Shown here: piece after piece, positions 17,873 to 26,949 of the stretch
How positions within the stretch are numbered: position 1 is the first letter of the stretch
Layout of the letters: each line of letters starts with the position of its first letter
From: Myxococcales bacterium
GTDB taxonomy: Bacteria > Myxococcota_A > Polyangia > Fen-1088
Direction of reading: 5' to 3'
DNA length: 46,847 nt
NCBI GenBank assembly: GCA_003158735.1
Contig: PMLB01000322.1
Coordinates: 47,722 to 94,568, forward strand
The notes under the pieces: model-generated
Database searches by the model: none
Told to the model about the DNA's origin: nothing
What the model saw: only the letters and a program-made list of their open reading frames with translations
Translations under genes and position numbers: made by a program

Positions 17873-18451
17873 GTGGAACACAAGCTGCCTGAACTTCCCT
17901 ACGCCAAGGACGCACTGGCCCCGCATATCTCGAAGGAAACCATCGAGTACCACTACGGCAAGCACCACGCGACCTATGTGGCCAACCTGAACAAACTCAT
18001 TGCTGGCACCGAATTCGCCGACCTCGGCTTGGAGGAGATCGTCAAGAAAGCCTCAGGCGGGATCTTCAACAACGCGGCCCAAATCTGGAACCACAGCTTC
18101 TACTGGAACTGCCTGTCGCCCCAGGGCGGTGGCGAGCCGAGCGGTCAACTGGCCGACGCCGTCAGCAAGAGCTTCGGAGGGTTTGCGTCCTTCAAGGAGA
18201 AGTTCAGCAATGCAGCGGTGACGCTGTTTGGTTCGGGCTGGGCCTGGCTGGTCAAAGGCCCCGACGGGAGCCTGAGCATTCAGCAGGCGAGCAATGCCGG
18301 CACGCCGCTCAAGGACGGCCAGAAAGCCATCCTGACCTGCGACGTGTGGGAGCACGCGTATTACATCGACTACCGCAACGCGCGCGCGAACTACGTCGAG
18401 GCGTTCTGGAAACTAGTCAACTGGCGCTTCGCTGGCGACAACTTCAAGTAG
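17873..18451 (+). CDS. sodB: Iron superoxide dismutase
   Basis: The 192-residue enzyme dismutates superoxide in the cytoplasm. Metal ligands are H27, H74, D157 and H161 ([26 protein letters not shown]). Q70 in NNAAQIWNH and the WNCLSP region are typical of the Fe type rather than the Mn type. The start is GTG at 17873, preceded at ideal spacing by a very strong ribosome site, AAGGAGGAGG; no other start is credible. The long CACAGAG palindrome just downstream separates it from the convergent cyanophycin synthetase genes. Confidence 0.97.
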
Positions 18452-18610: not shown

Positions 18611-21298
18611 TCAGGCGACTTGCGGGCCCAGGGGCAAAGCGCGCTTCTCGGGTTGCGCGGCGGCGGCCGCCGTCTGCACGCGGGCGGCGGGCGTGACAGG
18701 CATGCGGTTGGCGGCCACAAACTGCTCGATGAAGGCCAGGGAGGGATCCACCTGGTCGACCTGAACCAGGATCAAGTCCCCTGGCAACAACATGCGCAGC
18801 CCCGCCTCGATGGCGTGCTGCTCGCCGCGCGTTTCGATGATCTCGGCCACCCGCGTGCTGCGTGCCAGCCCCTTGTGCATGAGCGACACCACCTCGCCGT
18901 CGGGCCGGCCGCGCGTGCACTTGTCCTCGTAGATGATCACGTGGTCAAAGCCGTTGCCGATGATCTCGGCCTGGCGAGTGATGTCCACATCACGCCTATC
19001 ACCGGCGGCCGTGTACACCACCAGCCGCCGATCGTGCGGCATGCGACCGATGGCGTCGATGAGCGCCATCAAGGCGTCAGCGTTGTGCCCGTAGTCCACC
19101 ACAATGGTGGCCTCTTCATAGTCCAGCACATTGAATCGCCCTGGCGTGCTGCGGGTGTCGCTGGTGAAAGTGGCCAGAGCCGTGCGCATCACCTCGCAGG
19201 GCACGCCCACTGACCAACACGCAGCGGTGGCGGCCAGCACGTTGTCCACCTGGAAGCCGATCTGACCGTCGCGGGTGAGCGGCACCGCGCCCAGGCTGGT
19301 CACCCGCTGCTCGCGGCTGCCTTCGGCCAGCACCACCGTCTCGTTGCACACCACCACGGCGCGACCGCCGCGTGCGCGGTGAGCGACGATAAGCGGATGC
19401 TTGGGATCGCGCGCGAAGAAGATCACCGAGCCGGGACAGTAGGGCGCCATGGCCACGGTCATGGAATCCGCCGCGTTGAGCACGGCCGCGCCGGTGGGCG
19501 CCACGTTCTCCACCACGGTGCGCTTCACTTCGGCCAGTTGCTCCGTGGTGTCGATGCCTGCTATGCCCAAATGGTCGCCCTCGCCGATGTTGGTGACGAT
19601 GGCCACGTCACACATGTCGAAGCCGAGACCCTCGCGCAGGATGCCCCCGCGCGCGGTTTCCAGCACCGCCGCATCCACCCGCGGGTTGAACAACACCGCG
19701 CGAGCGCTGCGCGGCCCGCTGCAATCATCATGGTCGATGCGCCGGTCATCGATGTAAATGCCATCCGTGCAGGCCATGCCGACGTGCCGGCCGGCAGCCT
19801 TGAGGATGTGGCCGACCATGCGCACGGTGGTGGTCTTGCCGTTGGTGCCAGCCACTGCCACCAGCGGAATGCGCCCGTTCTCCCCTGGCGGGAACATGGT
19901 GGACACGATGGCCTCGCCCACTGGTCGCGGCTTGCCCACCGACGGGGCCAAGTGCATGCGAAGCCCGGGCGCGGCATTGACCTCGACGACAATTCCGCCT
20001 TGCTCTTCCAGAGGCCGGCTGATGTCGCCGCAGATCACGTCCACGCCGGCGACGTCCAGCCCGACCACGCGAGCCGCGTCCACCGCGCGTGCGGCGTTTT
20101 CCGGGTGCACACGGTCGGTCACGTCGGTTGCCGAACCGCCGGTGCTCAAGTTGCCGTTCTGGCGCAAGAGAACCTGCGTACCCGCCGCCGGGATCGAATC
20201 AGGCGTGTAGCCCTGGCCGGCCAGCACCGCCAGTCCAATGGCATCGAGACGCATCTTGCTCAGCGACGTGGAGTGGTCCTCGCCCCGCAGCGGGTCTGCA
20301 TTGACGGCTGCCACCAGCTCGGCCACGGTGGACTTGCTGTCGCCCTGCACCTGGGGCGGATCCCGACGAGCGGCCGCGATCATCCGGTCACCCACCACCA
20401 ACAAGCGGTGGTCGGCACCATGGGCGAAGCGTTCCACCAGCACCGACGAACCCTCGGCACTCGCGGCCTGAAAAGCGGCCAGCACCTGCTCGTGCGTGGT
20501 CAGGTTGACGGCCACACCACGACCCTGGTTTCCGTGCTGGGGCTTGAGCACCACCGGGAAACCGACCTCCTGTGCCATCTCCCAAGCTTCTGCCGCGTCC
20601 TTGACGGGACCGCCGGCCGGCACGGGCACGCCGACCGATCGAAGCAGGAGCTTGGTCAGCTCTTTGTCCTGCGCGATGGACTCGCCGATGGCGCTGGTTC
20701 GATCGGTCTCAGCAGCCAGAATGCGTCGCTGGCGCGAGCCCCAACCAAGCTGAACCAGACTGCCTTGATTCAGTCGGCGGGTGGGAACTCCCCTCGCGTC
20801 GGCAGCCCGCACGATGGCCCCCGTGCTGGGACCGAGGCGCAGATCCTCATCCTGGCGGCGCAACTGCTTGACCGCGGCGTGCACGTCGAAGGTTCGCTCG
20901 GCCAGCACGGCGTCGATGACCTGAACGGCCGCTGCAACCGCAGCGCGTGCCACATCTTCTTCGCGATACTCGACCACAACCTTGAATTGCCCCGCCTCAT
21001 TTGTCGATGTCGTCTTGCTGAAGGAAACCGGAATCTTTGCCCGCCTCTGCATCGCCATCGCCACGCGTTCCAAGACATGCGCCAGGGTGGGACTTTCGGC
21101 TGTCGCACCGCTGAGATCGGCGTCAGCCCATCGCACCCCGGAGAACAGGTCGGGCACAAGCGCGCGCAGATGCGTCTCGAATCCCCGGATCTCGGCCACT
21201 GCCATACGGGCCGGCCCGAGGTCGACGGTCACCTCAAGCGCAGTATGCCGACTCCAGATATTGGGTCCCCTGAGTGCACGAATTCTTTGGAGTTCCAT
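18611..21298 (-). CDS. cphA: Cyanophycin synthetase, second paralogue
   Basis: The 895-residue protein polymerises Asp and Arg into cyanophycin with ATP. The N domain (1-160) is followed by an ATP-grasp domain (about 200-475: TSAIGESIAQDKELTK, VLKPQHGNQGRGV, VVEVNAAPGLRMHL) and a Mur ligase-like domain with P-loop GTNGKTT at 484-490, ETARGGILREGLGFD and VVDYGHNADAL. By family knowledge the ATP-grasp part adds Asp and the Mur part adds Arg. It lies 19 bp behind the first copy, so they form an operon. In the N domain the segment equivalent to HILEH of the first copy reads HVLER (74-78). An Ala-rich tail ends the protein. Tandem cphA pairs are known in other bacteria. Confidence 0.95.
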   Translation of the reverse strand: MELQRIRALRGPNIWSRHTALEVTVDLGPARMAVAEIRGFETHLRALVPDLFSGVRWADADLSGATAESPTLAHVLERVAMAMQRRAKIPVSFSKTTSTNEAGQFKVVVEYREEDVARAAVAAAVQVIDAVLAERTFDVHAAVKQLRRQDEDLRLGPSTGAIVRAADARGVPTRRLNQGSLVQLGWGSRQRRILAAETDRTSAIGESIAQDKELTKLLLRSVGVPVPAGGPVKDAAEAWEMAQEVGFPVVLKPQHGNQGRGVAVNLTTHEQVLAAFQAASAEGSSVLVERFAHGADHRLLVVGDRMIAAARRDPPQVQGDSKSTVAELVAAVNADPLRGEDHSTSLSKMRLDAIGLAVLAGQGYTPDSIPAAGTQVLLRQNGNLSTGGSATDVTDRVHPENAARAVDAARVVGLDVAGVDVICGDISRPLEEQGGIVVEVNAAPGLRMHLAPSVGKPRPVGEAIVSTMFPPGENGRIPLVAVAGTNGKTTTVRMVGHILKAAGRHVGMACTDGIYIDDRRIDHDDCSGPRSARAVLFNPRVDAAVLETARGGILREGLGFDMCDVAIVTNIGEGDHLGIAGIDTTEQLAEVKRTVVENVAPTGAAVLNAADSMTVAMAPYCPGSVIFFARDPKHPLIVAHRARGGRAVVVCNETVVLAEGSREQRVTSLGAVPLTRDGQIGFQVDNVLAATAACWSVGVPCEVMRTALATFTSDTRSTPGRFNVLDYEEATIVVDYGHNADALMALIDAIGRMPHDRRLVVYTAAGDRRDVDITRQAEIIGNGFDHVIIYEDKCTRGRPDGEVVSLMHKGLARSTRVAEIIETRGEQHAIEAGLRMLLPGDLILVQVDQVDPSLAFIEQFVAANRMPVTPAARVQTAAAAAQPEKRALPLGPQVA

Positions 21299-21317
21299 GG
21301 TGGCCGTCTCGGGTTGG

Positions 21318-24029
21318 TTAGTTTTTCTTTGAGTCCGGCCTTGATGGAGACCGGAGGGTCACTGGTGATGCGACGGACCGCGGATGGGATTTATTCGCGG
21401 TTCCAGCACCGCCGCGTGCCTTTTTCTCTTCGCTAACCACGCCGATGGCCGATAACGCAGAAAGACTCGCTTCGACGTTGTCGTCGAGGGTCTGAAGCAA
21501 CGCCAGCTCGCCCGGTGCAAGCAGCGACAAGGCCTTGCCGACCGCCTCGCGATAGTCAGAAACATAAATGATTTCAGCGACCCTTGGTCCAAGCGCCAGT
21601 CCCCTGCGCAGCAGGCCAGGGACAGCACCCGGTGCCCGGCCCGCGGCCGACGGGTCGTCGTACAGGATGACGCGGTCAAAGGCGGCGGCCAAGATCTCGC
21701 CTTGCCGGACGATGTCCTCGTCGCGCCTCGCGTCCCCAGCAGAATAGATGACAGAGCGCTTCCGCTGGGGAAACCGGTCCAGAGCAGACACGACCGCAGC
21801 CAGTGCTGAGACGTTGTGGCAGTCGTCGATTACAAGGGTAGCTTCGCCATGGGACACGACGTTGAATCGGCAAGGGTCATCCTGCCGATCGGCACGGAAG
21901 GTTTCCAGGCTGGTGCGGATGGCTTCTTTGGATATCCCCAGCGCCCACGCCGCCGATGCGGCCGCCAAGGCGTTCTCCACCTGGAAGGGGACGCGCCCCG
22001 AGCAGGTGATGGGGATCTCGTTGATCGAGATGAGGTCGGTTTCCGACGGTCCCTCGCACAGAATCAACTGACCATCGCGCACGAATACGGCGCGCTTGCC
22101 CTGGCCACGATGCTGCTGCAGCGTCGGATGCGTGCCTTCGAGGGCAAAGAAGATCACCGAGCCCGCGCACAGCGGCGCCATCTTCGCCACCAGCGGATCG
22201 CCCGCATTGAGCACGGCACTGCCGGTGGGCAAGACTACGTCCACCGGCGAGCGCTTGACCGAAAACATGTCGTCGACGGTGTCCACGTTGTGCAGCCCCA
22301 GGTGGTCGGCCTGGCCAATGTTGGTCACCACCGCCACGTCGCAGCGGTCGAAGCCAAGACCCTCGCGCAAGATCCCGCCGCGGGCCGCTTCGAATACCGC
22401 AGCCTCGACCTGCGGGTTGAGAAGAACCTTGCGCGCGCTGCGCGGACCGGCGCAGTCCCCACCATCGATCATACGGCCGGACACGTCAATGCCATCGCTG
22501 GAGGTCATGCCCACCACACGTCCCGCCGAACGCAAAATGTGCGCCACCAGGCGAGTCACTGTGGTCTTGCCGTTGGTGCCAGTCACACACACGATGGGAA
22601 TTCGCCCGTTCTCGCCCGGTGGAAAAAGCGTGTCCACGATGGCCTCACCCACGGGCCGGGGCGCGCCCACCGAGGGTGCCAGATGCATTGCCAGTCCAGG
22701 CCCGGCGTTGACCTCGACTACGACTCCGCCCTGGTCCTCCAGCGGCTGCGAGATGTCGCTGGCCACGACGTCGAGTCCTGCCACGTCCAGACCGACGATC
22801 TGAGCCGCCAGGACCGCGTGGGCTGCGGTGCTGGGGTGAACCTGGTCGGTCACGTCGATGGCCAGGTTGTCGCTGTGCTGGACCACGACCGATACGCCGG
22901 CCGCCGGTACGCTTTCGGGACGGTAGCCCTGACGTTCGAGCTGCATCTGCGTGGACTTGTCGTCCACGCAAATCTGGCACAGCGGACAGGATTCATAGCT
23001 GCCGCGCCTGGGGTCAGAGTTGAGCTGCTGGTCAATGAGCTGGGCCACCGTTCGCTGGCCGTCACCCACGATGGAGGCGACTTCCCCGCGGGCAGCGGCC
23101 ACCAGCTTGCCACCCACCACCAGCAGCCGGTGTTCGGCGCCATCGGCGAACTTCTCGACAATCACGCTGCTGCCTTCGTGGCTTGCCGCCTCGAAAGCGG
23201 CCCGCACCTGCGCCTCGCGGGTCAAACTGGTGAACACGCCACGGGCGTGGTTGCCATCGCGCGGCTTGACCACCACGGACGTGCCGATCTCCTCGGCCGC
23301 CTGCCAGGCATCGTCCGCGTCGGTGACCAGGCGCCCCTCGGGAACCGGGATGCCACCCGCGCGCAGCAAGTTCTTGGTCAGCTCCTTGTCCTGCGCGATC
23401 GATTCAGCCACTGCGCTGGTGCGGTCAGTCTCGGCCGTCCAGATACGGCGCTGCTTGGCCCCCTGGCCCAGCTGCACCAGGCTGCCCTCGTTGAGTCGGC
23501 GCACGGGAATGCCACGGACGTCCGCCGCAGCGGTGATGGCGGCCGTGCTGGGGCCCAGGCACACGCGGTCGGCCAGCTCGCGCAACTTGCGCACTTCTTG
23601 CGCGACGTCGTAGGGCTTGTCGTAGATGGCGGCCAGCACCAGCTCGCGCGCGGCGAGCAGGCAGGCGCGCGCCAGCCTCTCGTCGCGGTAGCGCACCACG
23701 ACCCGATACACACCATCTTCCACCGTCTCACGTGCACGGCCGTACCCCACTGGCGTACCGGCCAGGTTCTGCAGTTCGATGGTGACGTGTTCCAGAATAT
23801 GCGCCGGGTAGGTTCCGTCGCGCAGACGTTGAAAGAAACCGCCGCGTTCACCCACGCTGCAGCGGTGCTCAATCATGGTCGGCAACCACGCCATCAGCCG
23901 ATCATTGAGACCGGGTATGGAATCAGACGGACTGTCCTTGAGGTCCTTGAGGTCAACCCACGCCTCCAACACCGTGTGCCGCGACCAGATGTTGGGTCCG
24001 CGTAGGGCGAAGATCTTTCTGATCTCCAT
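21318..24029 (-). CDS. cphA: Cyanophycin synthetase, first paralogue
   Basis: The protein has 903 residues from the ATG at 24029, preceded by AAGGA at good spacing; in-frame codons up to 24173 would run into the divergent gene and do not match the family. Domains: N domain with HILEH at 77-81, ATP-grasp (about 200-475: TSAVAESIAQDKELTK, VVKPRDGNHARGV, VVEVNAGPGLAMHL) and Mur ligase-like with P-loop GTNGKTT at 484-490, FEAARGGILREGLGFD and VIDDCHNVSAL. An unusual cysteine cluster, CPLCQIC (C348, C351, C354), interrupts a conserved stretch of the ATP-grasp part and is absent from the second copy. The Lys/Ser-rich C-terminal tail is variable in the family. Confidence 0.95.
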   Translation of the reverse strand: MEIRKIFALRGPNIWSRHTVLEAWVDLKDLKDSPSDSIPGLNDRLMAWLPTMIEHRCSVGERGGFFQRLRDGTYPAHILEHVTIELQNLAGTPVGYGRARETVEDGVYRVVVRYRDERLARACLLAARELVLAAIYDKPYDVAQEVRKLRELADRVCLGPSTAAITAAADVRGIPVRRLNEGSLVQLGQGAKQRRIWTAETDRTSAVAESIAQDKELTKNLLRAGGIPVPEGRLVTDADDAWQAAEEIGTSVVVKPRDGNHARGVFTSLTREAQVRAAFEAASHEGSSVIVEKFADGAEHRLLVVGGKLVAAARGEVASIVGDGQRTVAQLIDQQLNSDPRRGSYESCPLCQICVDDKSTQMQLERQGYRPESVPAAGVSVVVQHSDNLAIDVTDQVHPSTAAHAVLAAQIVGLDVAGLDVVASDISQPLEDQGGVVVEVNAGPGLAMHLAPSVGAPRPVGEAIVDTLFPPGENGRIPIVCVTGTNGKTTVTRLVAHILRSAGRVVGMTSSDGIDVSGRMIDGGDCAGPRSARKVLLNPQVEAAVFEAARGGILREGLGFDRCDVAVVTNIGQADHLGLHNVDTVDDMFSVKRSPVDVVLPTGSAVLNAGDPLVAKMAPLCAGSVIFFALEGTHPTLQQHRGQGKRAVFVRDGQLILCEGPSETDLISINEIPITCSGRVPFQVENALAAASAAWALGISKEAIRTSLETFRADRQDDPCRFNVVSHGEATLVIDDCHNVSALAAVVSALDRFPQRKRSVIYSAGDARRDEDIVRQGEILAAAFDRVILYDDPSAAGRAPGAVPGLLRRGLALGPRVAEIIYVSDYREAVGKALSLLAPGELALLQTLDDNVEASLSALSAIGVVSEEKKARGGAGTANKSHPRSVASPVTLRSPSRPDSKKN

Positions 24030-24100: not shown

Positions 24101-26470
24101 GTGGTGTATTTTGACGGCGAAGAACCGACCCTGCCGAGGTATGAGCAGCGCACCTTGACCGAATTGGACACAACCTGCAACCAGCTCCCCGAGCCCTTGC
24201 GCGGCATGGTGCAGGCTATGCTTGCGCCAGGCGAATCCTTGCGCGCCGTCTTCCAGCCCGACCTGGACGACCGACTGAAATATTTTGAGGGGCTGGTGGT
24301 GCTGACTGACCGGCGCTTGCTGGCGCGCGAAGGTTCTGAGTTGCGCACCTGGCCGCTGGCGCAGGTGGAACGGCTGCAAGCACGCGACCGGGGTGGCTTG
24401 GCCACGCTGGAAGCGCTTGGCCCCAACGCGCGTCTGGCATGCTGGTTCCACACCGTGGGCAAGGCGGCGGCTGCCCGCGATCTGGTGGACGCCTTCGACC
24501 GCCTGGCCGCGGGCCACCGGCCCGGCGGCCCGGACCTCGACGACGACCTGCCCGTGCCCGAGGGTGAGACGCCCACCGCACCGGTCAACGTGCGTTCGCT
24601 CTTCCGTCTGTTTCGCTTTGCCCGCGCCCACACCGCCGCGCTGACCCTAGGACTCCTGCTCACCCTTGGCGGAACCGCCGCTGGCTTGGTCCCGCCCTAC
24701 CTGACCTGGCCTTTGGTCGACAAGGTACTCGAGCCGTATCAGGACCACGTCAAAGAGCTGCGCTCCACCTCCGCGACGGGCGACCACACAGCGCAGGTGC
24801 GCAGCATCGAGCAGGAGCGTGTCACCGGATTCCACCGCGTCGGCTTCTACCTGCTCGCCTTCGCTGCCGCGGCGCTGCTCGCCTGGGTGCTAGGCTGGGC
24901 CCAGGGCTGGGTGCTGGCCTGGATCAGCGAGCGCATCAGTGCGGACCTGCGCAACACCACCTATGCCCACTTGCAGGAGCTGTCGTTGGACTACTTCGGC
25001 ACCAAGCGCACCGGCGATCTGGTGGCCCGTATCAGCAACGACACCGATCGCATCTGCAGCTTCCTCTCGGATACCTCGGTCGACTTCATCGCCGACGTGC
25101 TCATGATCGTGGGCACGGCGGTGGTGCTCATCAGCATCGACCCCATCCTGGCTGCCGCCACGCTGTGCACCTTCCCGATCATCGCGTGGTTGACCGTCCA
25201 TTTGCGCGACCGCATGACCCACGGCTTTCTGAACGGCGGCCGCGCCTGGGACGGGATGACCAGCCTGCTGGCCGACACGATTCCTGGCATCCGCGTGGTG
25301 AAGGCGTTTGCGCAGGAAACGCGCGAAATCGAGCGTTTCCGTGCCGCCAACCTGCGCATCATCGCGGCCAACGACCGGGTCAACCGCGTGTGGACCTTCT
25401 TCTGGCCCGCGGTGGCTCTGCTCACCCAGATCGGCCTGCTGGTGGTCTGGATGGTGGGCGCCTGGGAGGTCTTCAGCGGCCGGGTCACCGTCGGCGTGTT
25501 GGTGGCTTTTCTGGCCTACATTGGTCGTTTCTATTCGCGGCTCGAGTCCATGAGCCGCATGGTCACCAGCACGCAAAAAGCCGCAGCCAGCAGCCAGCGC
25601 CTGTTTGAAATCCTGGACCGGCCGCCCGGCGTGCCCGAGCCGGCGCATCCGGTGCATCCCGAGAAGATCGATGGCGCCATCGAGATACGCAACGCCAGCT
25701 TCCGCTTCGGCAGCCGGCAAGTCATCGACGGCGTCAGCCTGGACGTGAAGCCGGGCGAGATGATCGGCCTGGTGGGCACCACCGGCGCGGGCAAGAGCAC
25801 TCTCGTCAATCTGGTGTGCCGCTTCTACGACGTGAGCGAAGGCTCGGTGCTGGTGGACGGAACTGACATCCGGTCTTTCCCCATCGCCGAGTACCGCCGT
25901 CACATCGGCATCGTGCTGCAGGACCCTTTCCTTTTCTGGGGCAGCATCGCGGAGAACATCGCATACGGCAAACCCAACGCCACCCGCTCCGAGATCGTGG
26001 CCGCAGCGCGAGCCGCGCGGGCGCACGAATTCATCCTGCAGCTCTCCGACGGCTACGATTCCATGGTGGGCGAACGCGGCCACACCCTCTCGGGCGGGGA
26101 GCGCCAGCGCATCTCCATCGCGCGCGCCCTGCTCATCGATCCGAGCATCCTCATCCTCGACGAAGCGACCTCGTCGGTGGACACGCAAACCGAACGCGAG
26201 ATCCAGGAGGCGCTCGACAACCTGGTGCGCGGCCGCACCACCATCGCGATTGCCCACCGGCTAAGCACCCTGCACAAGGCAGACCGGCTGGTGGTGCTGG
26301 AGCACGGCCGTGTGATCGAGATGGGACAGCACCCCGATCTGCTCGCCGCCGGCGGTCGCTACGCACAGCTCTACCAGGCGCAGATGCAGCGTGGGCAGGA
26401 GTTGGGCAGTCCCGAACCGCCGCGCGAGCTGCCGCCGCCCGCGCCCGAGCGCGAGGGAGGTGACGCGTGA
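24101..26470 (+). CDS. ABC exporter associated with cyanophycin metabolism
   Basis: The 789-residue half-transporter fuses permease and ATPase. Residues 1-160 form an extra N-terminal part with a PH/GRAM-like pattern (LAPGESLRAVFQ, GLVVLTDRRLLAREG, WPLAQVERLQ). Six membrane helices follow at about 180-460. The ATPase has Walker A GTTGAGKST near 559-567, signature LSGGERQR near 663, Walker B ILILDEATSSVD near 683 and the H-loop AIAHRLS. The start is GTG at 24101 or the adjacent GTG at 24104, behind AAGAAGG. It is divergent from the cphA pair with a 71-bp shared promoter region and overlaps the DUF1854 gene by 4 bases. This gene pair is known to travel with cphA, but the transported substrate is unknown. 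Confidence 0.92.
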   Translation: MVYFDGEEPTLPRYEQRTLTELDTTCNQLPEPLRGMVQAMLAPGESLRAVFQPDLDDRLKYFEGLVVLTDRRLLAREGSELRTWPLAQVERLQARDRGGLATLEALGPNARLACWFHTVGKAAAARDLVDAFDRLAAGHRPGGPDLDDDLPVPEGETPTAPVNVRSLFRLFRFARAHTAALTLGLLLTLGGTAAGLVPPYLTWPLVDKVLEPYQDHVKELRSTSATGDHTAQVRSIEQERVTGFHRVGFYLLAFAAAALLAWVLGWAQGWVLAWISERISADLRNTTYAHLQELSLDYFGTKRTGDLVARISNDTDRICSFLSDTSVDFIADVLMIVGTAVVLISIDPILAAATLCTFPIIAWLTVHLRDRMTHGFLNGGRAWDGMTSLLADTIPGIRVVKAFAQETREIERFRAANLRIIAANDRVNRVWTFFWPAVALLTQIGLLVVWMVGAWEVFSGRVTVGVLVAFLAYIGRFYSRLESMSRMVTSTQKAAASSQRLFEILDRPPGVPEPAHPVHPEKIDGAIEIRNASFRFGSRQVIDGVSLDVKPGEMIGLVGTTGAGKSTLVNLVCRFYDVSEGSVLVDGTDIRSFPIAEYRRHIGIVLQDPFLFWGSIAENIAYGKPNATRSEIVAAARAARAHEFILQLSDGYDSMVGERGHTLSGGERQRISIARALLIDPSILILDEATSSVDTQTEREIQEALDNLVRGRTTIAIAHRLSTLHKADRLVVLEHGRVIEMGQHPDLLAAGGRYAQLYQAQMQRGQELGSPEPPRELPPPAPEREGGDA

Positions 26471-26949
26471 ACGACCACGGCGCAACCGTCCCCATTCGCC
26501 TGCACCACGACGCCTTCGGTCGGCTGGTCGTGACCCTGGCCAACGGAGAAATCCACAGTGGTGTCGTGCCCGTGCGCGCCTTCCCATTCTCAGCGCCCGA
26601 CCAGTGGATTTCCCTGTGCGACGAAAGCGGCCACGAGGTCTTCTGCCTGAACGACCTGGCCGAACTCGACCGTGAAACGCGTGACCAGCTTGCGGCCGAG
26701 CTGGCCCGCCGCGAGTTCGTCCCGCGCATCCTGCGCATCATGCGCGTGGTCAAGGGCGGCGTGGCCAGCCAGTGGTTCGTAGAGAGCGACCGCGGCCCCA
26801 CCAGCTTCGAGCTGCCCAGCGAAGACAATATCCGTCGCATGGGCAGCGACGGCGCCCTGCTAATTGACGGGCACGGTATTCGCTACCGCATCACCTCGGT
26901 GGCCCAGTTGGACACTCACAGCCGGCGAATTCTGCGCCAGTATTTATGA
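26467..26949 (+). CDS. DUF1854 protein associated with cyanophycin metabolism
   Basis: The 160-residue soluble protein matches the DUF1854 pattern: VPVRAFPFSAPDQWISLCDESGHE in the first third (about 33-56), ELARREFVPRILRI, a ...WFVESDRGPTSFEL strand pair, DNIRRM and LDTHSRRILRQYL at the C-terminus. The GTG start (26467) overlaps the transporter stop as GTGA, so the two are translationally coupled. By established association this family accompanies cyanophycin synthetase and its ABC transporter. The biochemical role is not known; a regulator or partner of the transporter is only an inference. Confidence 0.9.
   Translation: MNDHGATVPIRLHHDAFGRLVVTLANGEIHSGVVPVRAFPFSAPDQWISLCDESGHEVFCLNDLAELDRETRDQLAAELARREFVPRILRIMRVVKGGVASQWFVESDRGPTSFELPSEDNIRRMGSDGALLIDGHGIRYRITSVAQLDTHSRRILRQYL

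Follow-up and report, generated by a model that had tools for sequence, protein, structure and literature searches.

Tandem cyanophycin synthetase genes of a Myxococcales bacterium appear to divide the active sites of a single CphA1 between two proteins

An apparent division of labour between adjacent CphA1 genes

In SuCphA1, the cyanophycin synthetase of Synechocystis sp. UTEX2470, three sites reside in one chain. The DNA analyzed here (the window, 46,847 nt from a Myxococcales bacterium; contig C78 of the genome numbered G000) contains two adjacent genes of the CphA1 family, and neither of the encoded chains has all three. Copy 1 (21318..24029, minus strand, 903 aa) has an intact N-domain primer-generating site and a degraded G-domain aspartate-acceptor site; copy 2 (18611..21298, minus strand, 895 aa) has the G and M sites and lacks the N-domain metal site, as judged for both from TIGR02068 matches and alignment, to SuCphA1 in the case of copy 1. 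On these grounds it is rather probable that a tandem duplication divided a three-site CphA1 into a primer maker, copy 1, and a primer-dependent polymerase, copy 2. The observations that carry this reading are the sequence anatomy of the copies, its recurrence in the pairs examined, the complementary conservation of the domains and the tandem order. Catalysis, the primer dependence of copy 2 and the physical association of the copies are what we infer: a single three-site enzyme would have duplicated in tandem and its activities been divided; the metal site of copy 1 would cut long cyanophycin into short primers, and its G domain would no longer bind incoming aspartate, the M site being degraded too in several lineages; copy 2 would add aspartate (G) and arginine (M), extending primers, and, as it would be unable to cut, should need copy 1 to supply its primers, either within a mixed oligomer or in trans. 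No account of a split of active sites between tandem cphA genes was found in the open-licence literature searched, which omits most subscription papers.

The gene pair and its neighborhood

Both copies are open frames arranged in tandem on the minus strand, copy 1 first, with 19 nt between them. Both exceed the curated cut-off of the cyanophycin synthetase family TIGR02068 (850 bits), with whole-protein scores of 976.7 (copy 1) and 1004.9 (copy 2). The nearest named relatives of copy 1 among the matches listed are Myxococcales MAGs, at 89-95% identity. Divergent from the pair lie genes for a cyanophycin metabolism-associated ABC transporter (24101..26470, plus strand; NF052233, 1068.8 bits, cut-off 880) and a cyanophycin metabolism-associated DUF1854 protein (26467..26949, plus strand; NF052234, 174 bits, cut-off 150; PF08909). 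On the other side, a Fe/Mn superoxide dismutase gene (17873-18451) is convergent with copy 2, and an open frame of 685 aa at 15747-17804 matches no Pfam family at 1e-5. A scan for promoters and terminators gave nothing clear (2 promoter-like sequences vs. 0.7 expected, 5 terminator-like vs. 5.0).

The N-domain site

The first-pass annotation of this DNA had noticed HILEH at residues 77-81 of copy 1 (codons 23801-23787) and HVLER at residues 74-78 of copy 2 (21079-21065), readings which are exact, and had surmised that HxxEH belongs to the primer-generating site described in some CphA1 enzymes, kept in the first copy only. Residues 1-838 of copy 1 align with SuCphA1 (E 3.5e-196); C57, H77, E80 and H81 fall on C59, H79, E82 and H83 of the latter, the Cx19 spacing being exact (23787..23861, minus strand), and these Cx19HxxEH residues form the N-domain metal site according to the available text of PMC9262961. 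The surmise is thus borne out, and the refuting outcome, with the site lying elsewhere and being the same in both copies, did not occur. At SuCphA1 positions 57, 59, 67, 70, 79, 82, 83 and 87 copy 1 reads H, C, F, R, H, E, H and E, sharing metal and base residues as well as spacing. Of the Cx19HxxEH residues copy 2 retains just H79 and E82 (SuCphA1 numbering): HVLER (21065..21079, minus strand) is a remnant in which the second metal His is replaced by Arg, the Cys ligand is also gone, and two of the three metal ligands are hence missing. The complete motif is present in 83% of CphA1 sequences at 70% non-redundancy, by the same source in its available part. HxxEH on its own was discarded as evidence, since the six frames of the window contain 11 instances of it; it is meaningful here because homology to SuCphA1 places the residues of copy 1 on the published site. 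H77, E80 and H81 share one helix, residues 75-90, in the predicted model of copy 1 (mean pLDDT 82.7), in which the stretch 56-59, including the Cys, is of low confidence.

The G and M domains

Both copies had been said to keep the ATP-grasp and Mur-type nucleotide motifs. This holds for the Mur P-loop and the ATP-grasp lysines, retained in both, and leaves out that copy 1 is devoid of G-domain residues which bind aspartate. In the parts of PMC9427784 available, the incoming aspartate is contacted at its beta-carboxylate by R323 and N394 and at its alpha-carboxylate by R458, with S396 alongside. In copy 1, Gly315 (23085..23087, minus strand) replaces R323, Ala447 (22689..22691, minus strand) replaces R458, and a 5-residue loop bearing STGG and S396 is deleted at 22860..22865 (minus strand), the placement of the gap being approximate. 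Copy 2 retains R323, N394, S396 and R458. Copy 1 is thus a member of the family by sequence, and because of the changes R323G and R458A and the deletion of the S396 loop it is not classed as a working two-reaction CphA1. GshF proteins, which are ATP-grasp relatives, likewise have the STGG loop, and in the alignment one of their arginines falls near R323; copy 1 therefore probably lost old features.

Other parts of the domain look intact. K220, K261, H267, R309, D431 and E450 (SuCphA1 numbering) are all retained in copy 1 of the window, and also in the copy 1 genes of other genomes wherever these positions are readable. This counts against the split, as the G core of copy 1 keeps the ATP and acyl-phosphate residues and is conserved nearly to the level of copy 2, which is odd for a dead ligase; it suggests that binding of ATP and polymer may persist in the core, or that the core may work with a different acceptor. 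Copy 1 could accordingly be still a ligase, with a G domain that accepts something else in place of aspartate (for example a dipeptide, like CphA2, or a residue in which the two carboxylates are lacking); the product of the pair would then be a modified or capped polymer, for the processing of which the N site is kept. The combination of retained catalytic residues, strong constraint on the G core and changed acceptor-binding residues is what such a ligase would display. A simple dipeptide acceptor fits poorly with the loss of R458, the contact of the acceptor alpha-carboxylate, and no local source of dipeptides was seen, the cyanophycinase-like query taken from the genome being unmatched in 54 of 54 pair loci, with the reserve that the query is itself a weak cyanophycinase and the stretches are short. 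We regard this ligase as an unlikely though serious alternative to the primer maker.

The M-domain residues K499, T500, E558, D585, H586, D745 and H748 are present in both copies of the window, and that copy 1 has all the scored Mur catalytic residues is another argument against the split. Neighbouring residues of copy 1 differ, PGR being changed to PCR and DYGHN to DDCHN. Copy 2 shares with SuCphA1 these M residues and the scored G residues, except that Gln258 (20525..20527, minus strand) replaces His267 of the G-domain P-loop. A His267 to Ala mutant is impaired in known enzymes (PMC9427784, available part), and the replacement also speaks against the split; Gln at 267 was nonetheless rejected as proof of a dead G domain in copy 2, since it is found in 10 of 22 single genes with three sites (hand count; singles among the best 80 of at least 566 relatives).

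Recurrence of the pair in other genomes

Contigs were scanned with the alignment of copy 1, and the best 80 loci of at least 566 relatives were kept. A tandem pair on the same strand, copy 1 first, was found at 54 of these; four of the 54 belong to genomes also present in the G-numbered set. The other 26 loci have a single gene, of the copy 1 type in 4 cases and with three sites in 22. Pairs were seen in Myxococcota, Planctomycetota and Burkholderiales (Achromobacter, Bordetella, Cupriavidus, Pandoraea, Ralstonia). The scan used two search peptides, one of which overlaps the E and H of the motif and is present in 51 of the 54 copy 1 genes; the intact N site in copy 1 genes and singles found by the scan is therefore partly there by construction. 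Pairs found by whole-protein profiles provide the fair test. Among them the exact Cx19HxxEH occurs in 17 of 17 copy 1 proteins (copy 1 of G001, the N-terminus of which is missing at a contig end, stays outside the 17), and Cx18-24HxxEH in 0 of 18 copy 2 proteins. Over all rows, most copy 1 rows coming from the motif-biased scan, the motif is found in 70 of 70 copy 1 proteins and HxxEH in 0 of 68 copy 2 N-termini and in 103 of 106 singles, two of the 106 being genes counted twice; L051-L055, which repeat G-numbered genomes, and four partial or third-paralogue rows are excluded from this count.

The state of copy 2 and the state of the G domain were not selected for by the scan. STGG is present in 0 of 71 copy 1 and in 71 of 72 copy 2 frames, and R323 is replaced by Gly in every copy 1 row having a G domain. 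The sole exception is copy 2 of G232 (L168:1021-3531, an open frame), which lacks the R323-S396 stretch, the only case among the 72 copy 2 rows. The division of labour put forward in the first-pass annotation is on the whole supported by comparative inference, as copy 1 lacks the aspartate-acceptor site and the pattern recurs in readable tandem pairs, bar copy 2 of G232; having lost the aspartate site as well, the latter counts against the split. The G232 genome has another N-domain match elsewhere.

Scores above the family cut-off and retained nucleotide-binding motifs in both proteins would suit a pair of independent synthetases, each serving under its own conditions, between which the motif has merely drifted. 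This is very improbable, given that the same complementary losses are found across three phyla and the order is always copy 1, then copy 2; drift would give no such fixed assignment.

In 377 genomes of the phylum, 90 of which match at 1e-100, eight pairs were found outside the family of the window. At the 80 non-pair CphA loci of this search the C, H, E and H residues are present in 78, Ala replaces Cys in one, and the region is missing in one. A search of the same 377 genomes for standalone N-domain genes gave 89 genomes with a match at 1e-6 and one short open frame, of 279 aa, in G350. Odd genes were met among the non-pair loci: of L224, L226 and L227, one is without a readable N domain, and two have broken M motifs and Met at 267. 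Single CphA1 genes elsewhere in the class and phylum (L047, L048, L049, L050 and several of L151-L160) adjoin a separate Mur-ligase-like gene, which has M-domain motifs and no matching G domain.

The N-terminal part of the ABC protein is matched at 46 of the 54 pair loci (hand count; best 80 of at least 566 relatives). The ABC/DUF1854 neighbors were rejected as a mark specific to the split pair, a strong ABC match being found also at 9 of the 22 three-site singles (hand count; same 80 loci), so that the association seems older than the split.

Conservation of domains, selection and trees

Domain identities were compared in 24 pairs (276 comparisons, 266 for the M lid), which share ancestry and are not independent of one another. 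Mean identities in copy 1 vs. copy 2 are.62 vs..39 for the N domain,.64 vs..67 for the G core and lid,.46 vs..59 for the G omega,.49 vs..64 for the M core, and.25 vs..58 for the M lid. In 13 three-site singles the corresponding values are.645,.669,.643,.627 and.564. The 11 profile-found pairs give.62/.39 for N,.56/.67 for the G core and lid,.43/.52 for the G omega,.45/.64 for the M core and.11/.59 for the M lid, and in all 55 comparisons of the N domain copy 1 has the higher identity. By these values conservation is complementary: the N domain of copy 1 behaves as a working domain and its M domain and G omega are relaxed, the reverse being true of copy 2. Within the genus (five genomes) dN/dS is low in all domains, ranging from.049 to.194 (G core,.076 in copy 1 vs..070 in copy 2), and neither copy therefore resembles a pseudogene.

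In a tree of 94 rows made from the G and M columns other than the diagnostic ones, copy 1 proteins form one side of a branch (SH-aLRT 99), and so do copy 2 proteins (SH-aLRT 87, not starred). The branching orders of the two copies are alike by eye. These features fit a single duplication, after which the two genes were inherited and transferred together. In a weakly supported tree made from N and G columns four singles fall inside copy 1, unlike in the 94-row tree.

Reduced copy 1 genes

In 14 of 24 representatives copy 1 does not have the full set of scored M residues. Parsimony gives four changes for the loss on the weakly supported N and G tree, and well-supported branches force only two. 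In copy 1 of G122, G232, G067 and G093 the P-loop lysine and the lid residues are lost. Reduction is most pronounced in copy 1 of G310 (L169:1815-3164, 450 aa), which retains the N domain with the full site and jumps from residue about 200 to residue about 463 of the copy 1 of the window, so that the ATP-grasp is gone; the M P-loop and lid are also missing, and the adjacent copy 2 has G and M sites. G310 is one MAG with a listed contamination of 8%, a point which counts against leaning on this case; the copy 1 frame is open and the order of the pair is conserved.

The loss of the whole ATP-grasp with the N site staying in place is at variance with a ligase taking another acceptor. The predicted model of the G310 protein (449 residues, mean pLDDT 81) matches TeCphA1 over 433 residues (Z 35.6, rmsd 3.3), and a CphA1-like fold kept without ATP-grasp, along with the low dN/dS of copy 1 over all domains in the genus, would agree with a mainly structural or regulatory role, copy 1 stabilizing a heteromer by its G core and M core and the N site being incidental. 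Such a role is improbable: the N metal site is the most strictly retained feature of copy 1 (17 of 17 profile-found proteins), and it is what remains when its G and M domains decay. A larger proposal building on primer maker and polymerase, that the clade has an obligate two-subunit machine made up of a dedicated primase-like subunit and a primer-dependent polymerase, that the pair spread as a unit across three phyla and that the primase of one lineage shed its ATP-grasp, has in our judgment even chances.

Known systems and the third paralogue

CphA2, the cyanobacterial beta-Asp-Arg polymerase, has a reduced M domain, and neither copy of the window is of this kind, the M domain being of full length with GTNGKT in each, and the N motif being present in copy 1. 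Absence of the N motif (PMC9262961, from the legend available) and a short chain of 629-642 residues are features that CphA2 shares with a third paralogue described below, in contrast to the pair, in which both proteins are full length, with the N motif in copy 1 and M motifs in copy 2.

TmCphA1 is reported in the available part of PMC9262961 to lack the N motif and to need a primer, and copy 2 likewise lacks the motif; TmCphA1 has been studied as a single enzyme, whereas copy 2 is found beside a copy 1 with a predicted active N site. According to the same text, SuCphA1 with dead G and/or M domains makes TmCphA1 primer-independent in trans, and the pair looks like a natural version of this complementation. 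By the same comparison, loss of the N site need not imply a partner, because TmCphA1 lacks the motif and is studied alone.

Adjacent cphA pairs, one with an ABC neighbor, are already in print: two adjacent genes, as here, are described in Betaproteobacteria (PMC5178258), and activated-sludge 'Group 1' clusters have two cphA genes and an ABC transporter without cphB (PMC10687191). A split of active sites is absent from both accounts, as far as their available text goes. Neither in the host nor in E. coli did homologues from R. eutropha H16 yield cyanophycin (PMC8560796, citing Adames 2013), and none is reported in wild-type H16 (PMC11362209), according to the available parts of these reviews. 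The result is in favor of a ligase with another acceptor and against primer maker and polymerase. TmCphA1 with a dead N domain makes cyanophycin in E. coli (PMC9262961, available part), so that copy 2 alone might be expected to make some. If true, the division would explain why many Burkholderiales and other bacteria have two adjacent cphA genes, and would offer a possible reason why one such gene expressed alone might give no cyanophycin. Primer supply would become testable with two separable proteins, and a natural primase subunit could serve cyanophycin production.

A third CphA paralogue is present in the genome of the window (L044:2757-4706, G000:C31; 649 aa). It is devoid of an N site, carries Trp where SuCphA1 has S396 and Tyr where the latter has H267, and its M domain is truncated and without P-loop; the change S396W abolishes the activity of SuCphA1 (PMC9427784, available part). 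Directly after it lies a gene for a peptidase S51 protein resembling cyanophycinase (L044:4718-5704; TIGR02069, 72.3 bits, below the cut-off of 126.6). In the relative G001 (L041), genes that match the ABC transporter, the DUF1854 protein and the cyanophycinase-like protein line up with the third paralogue.
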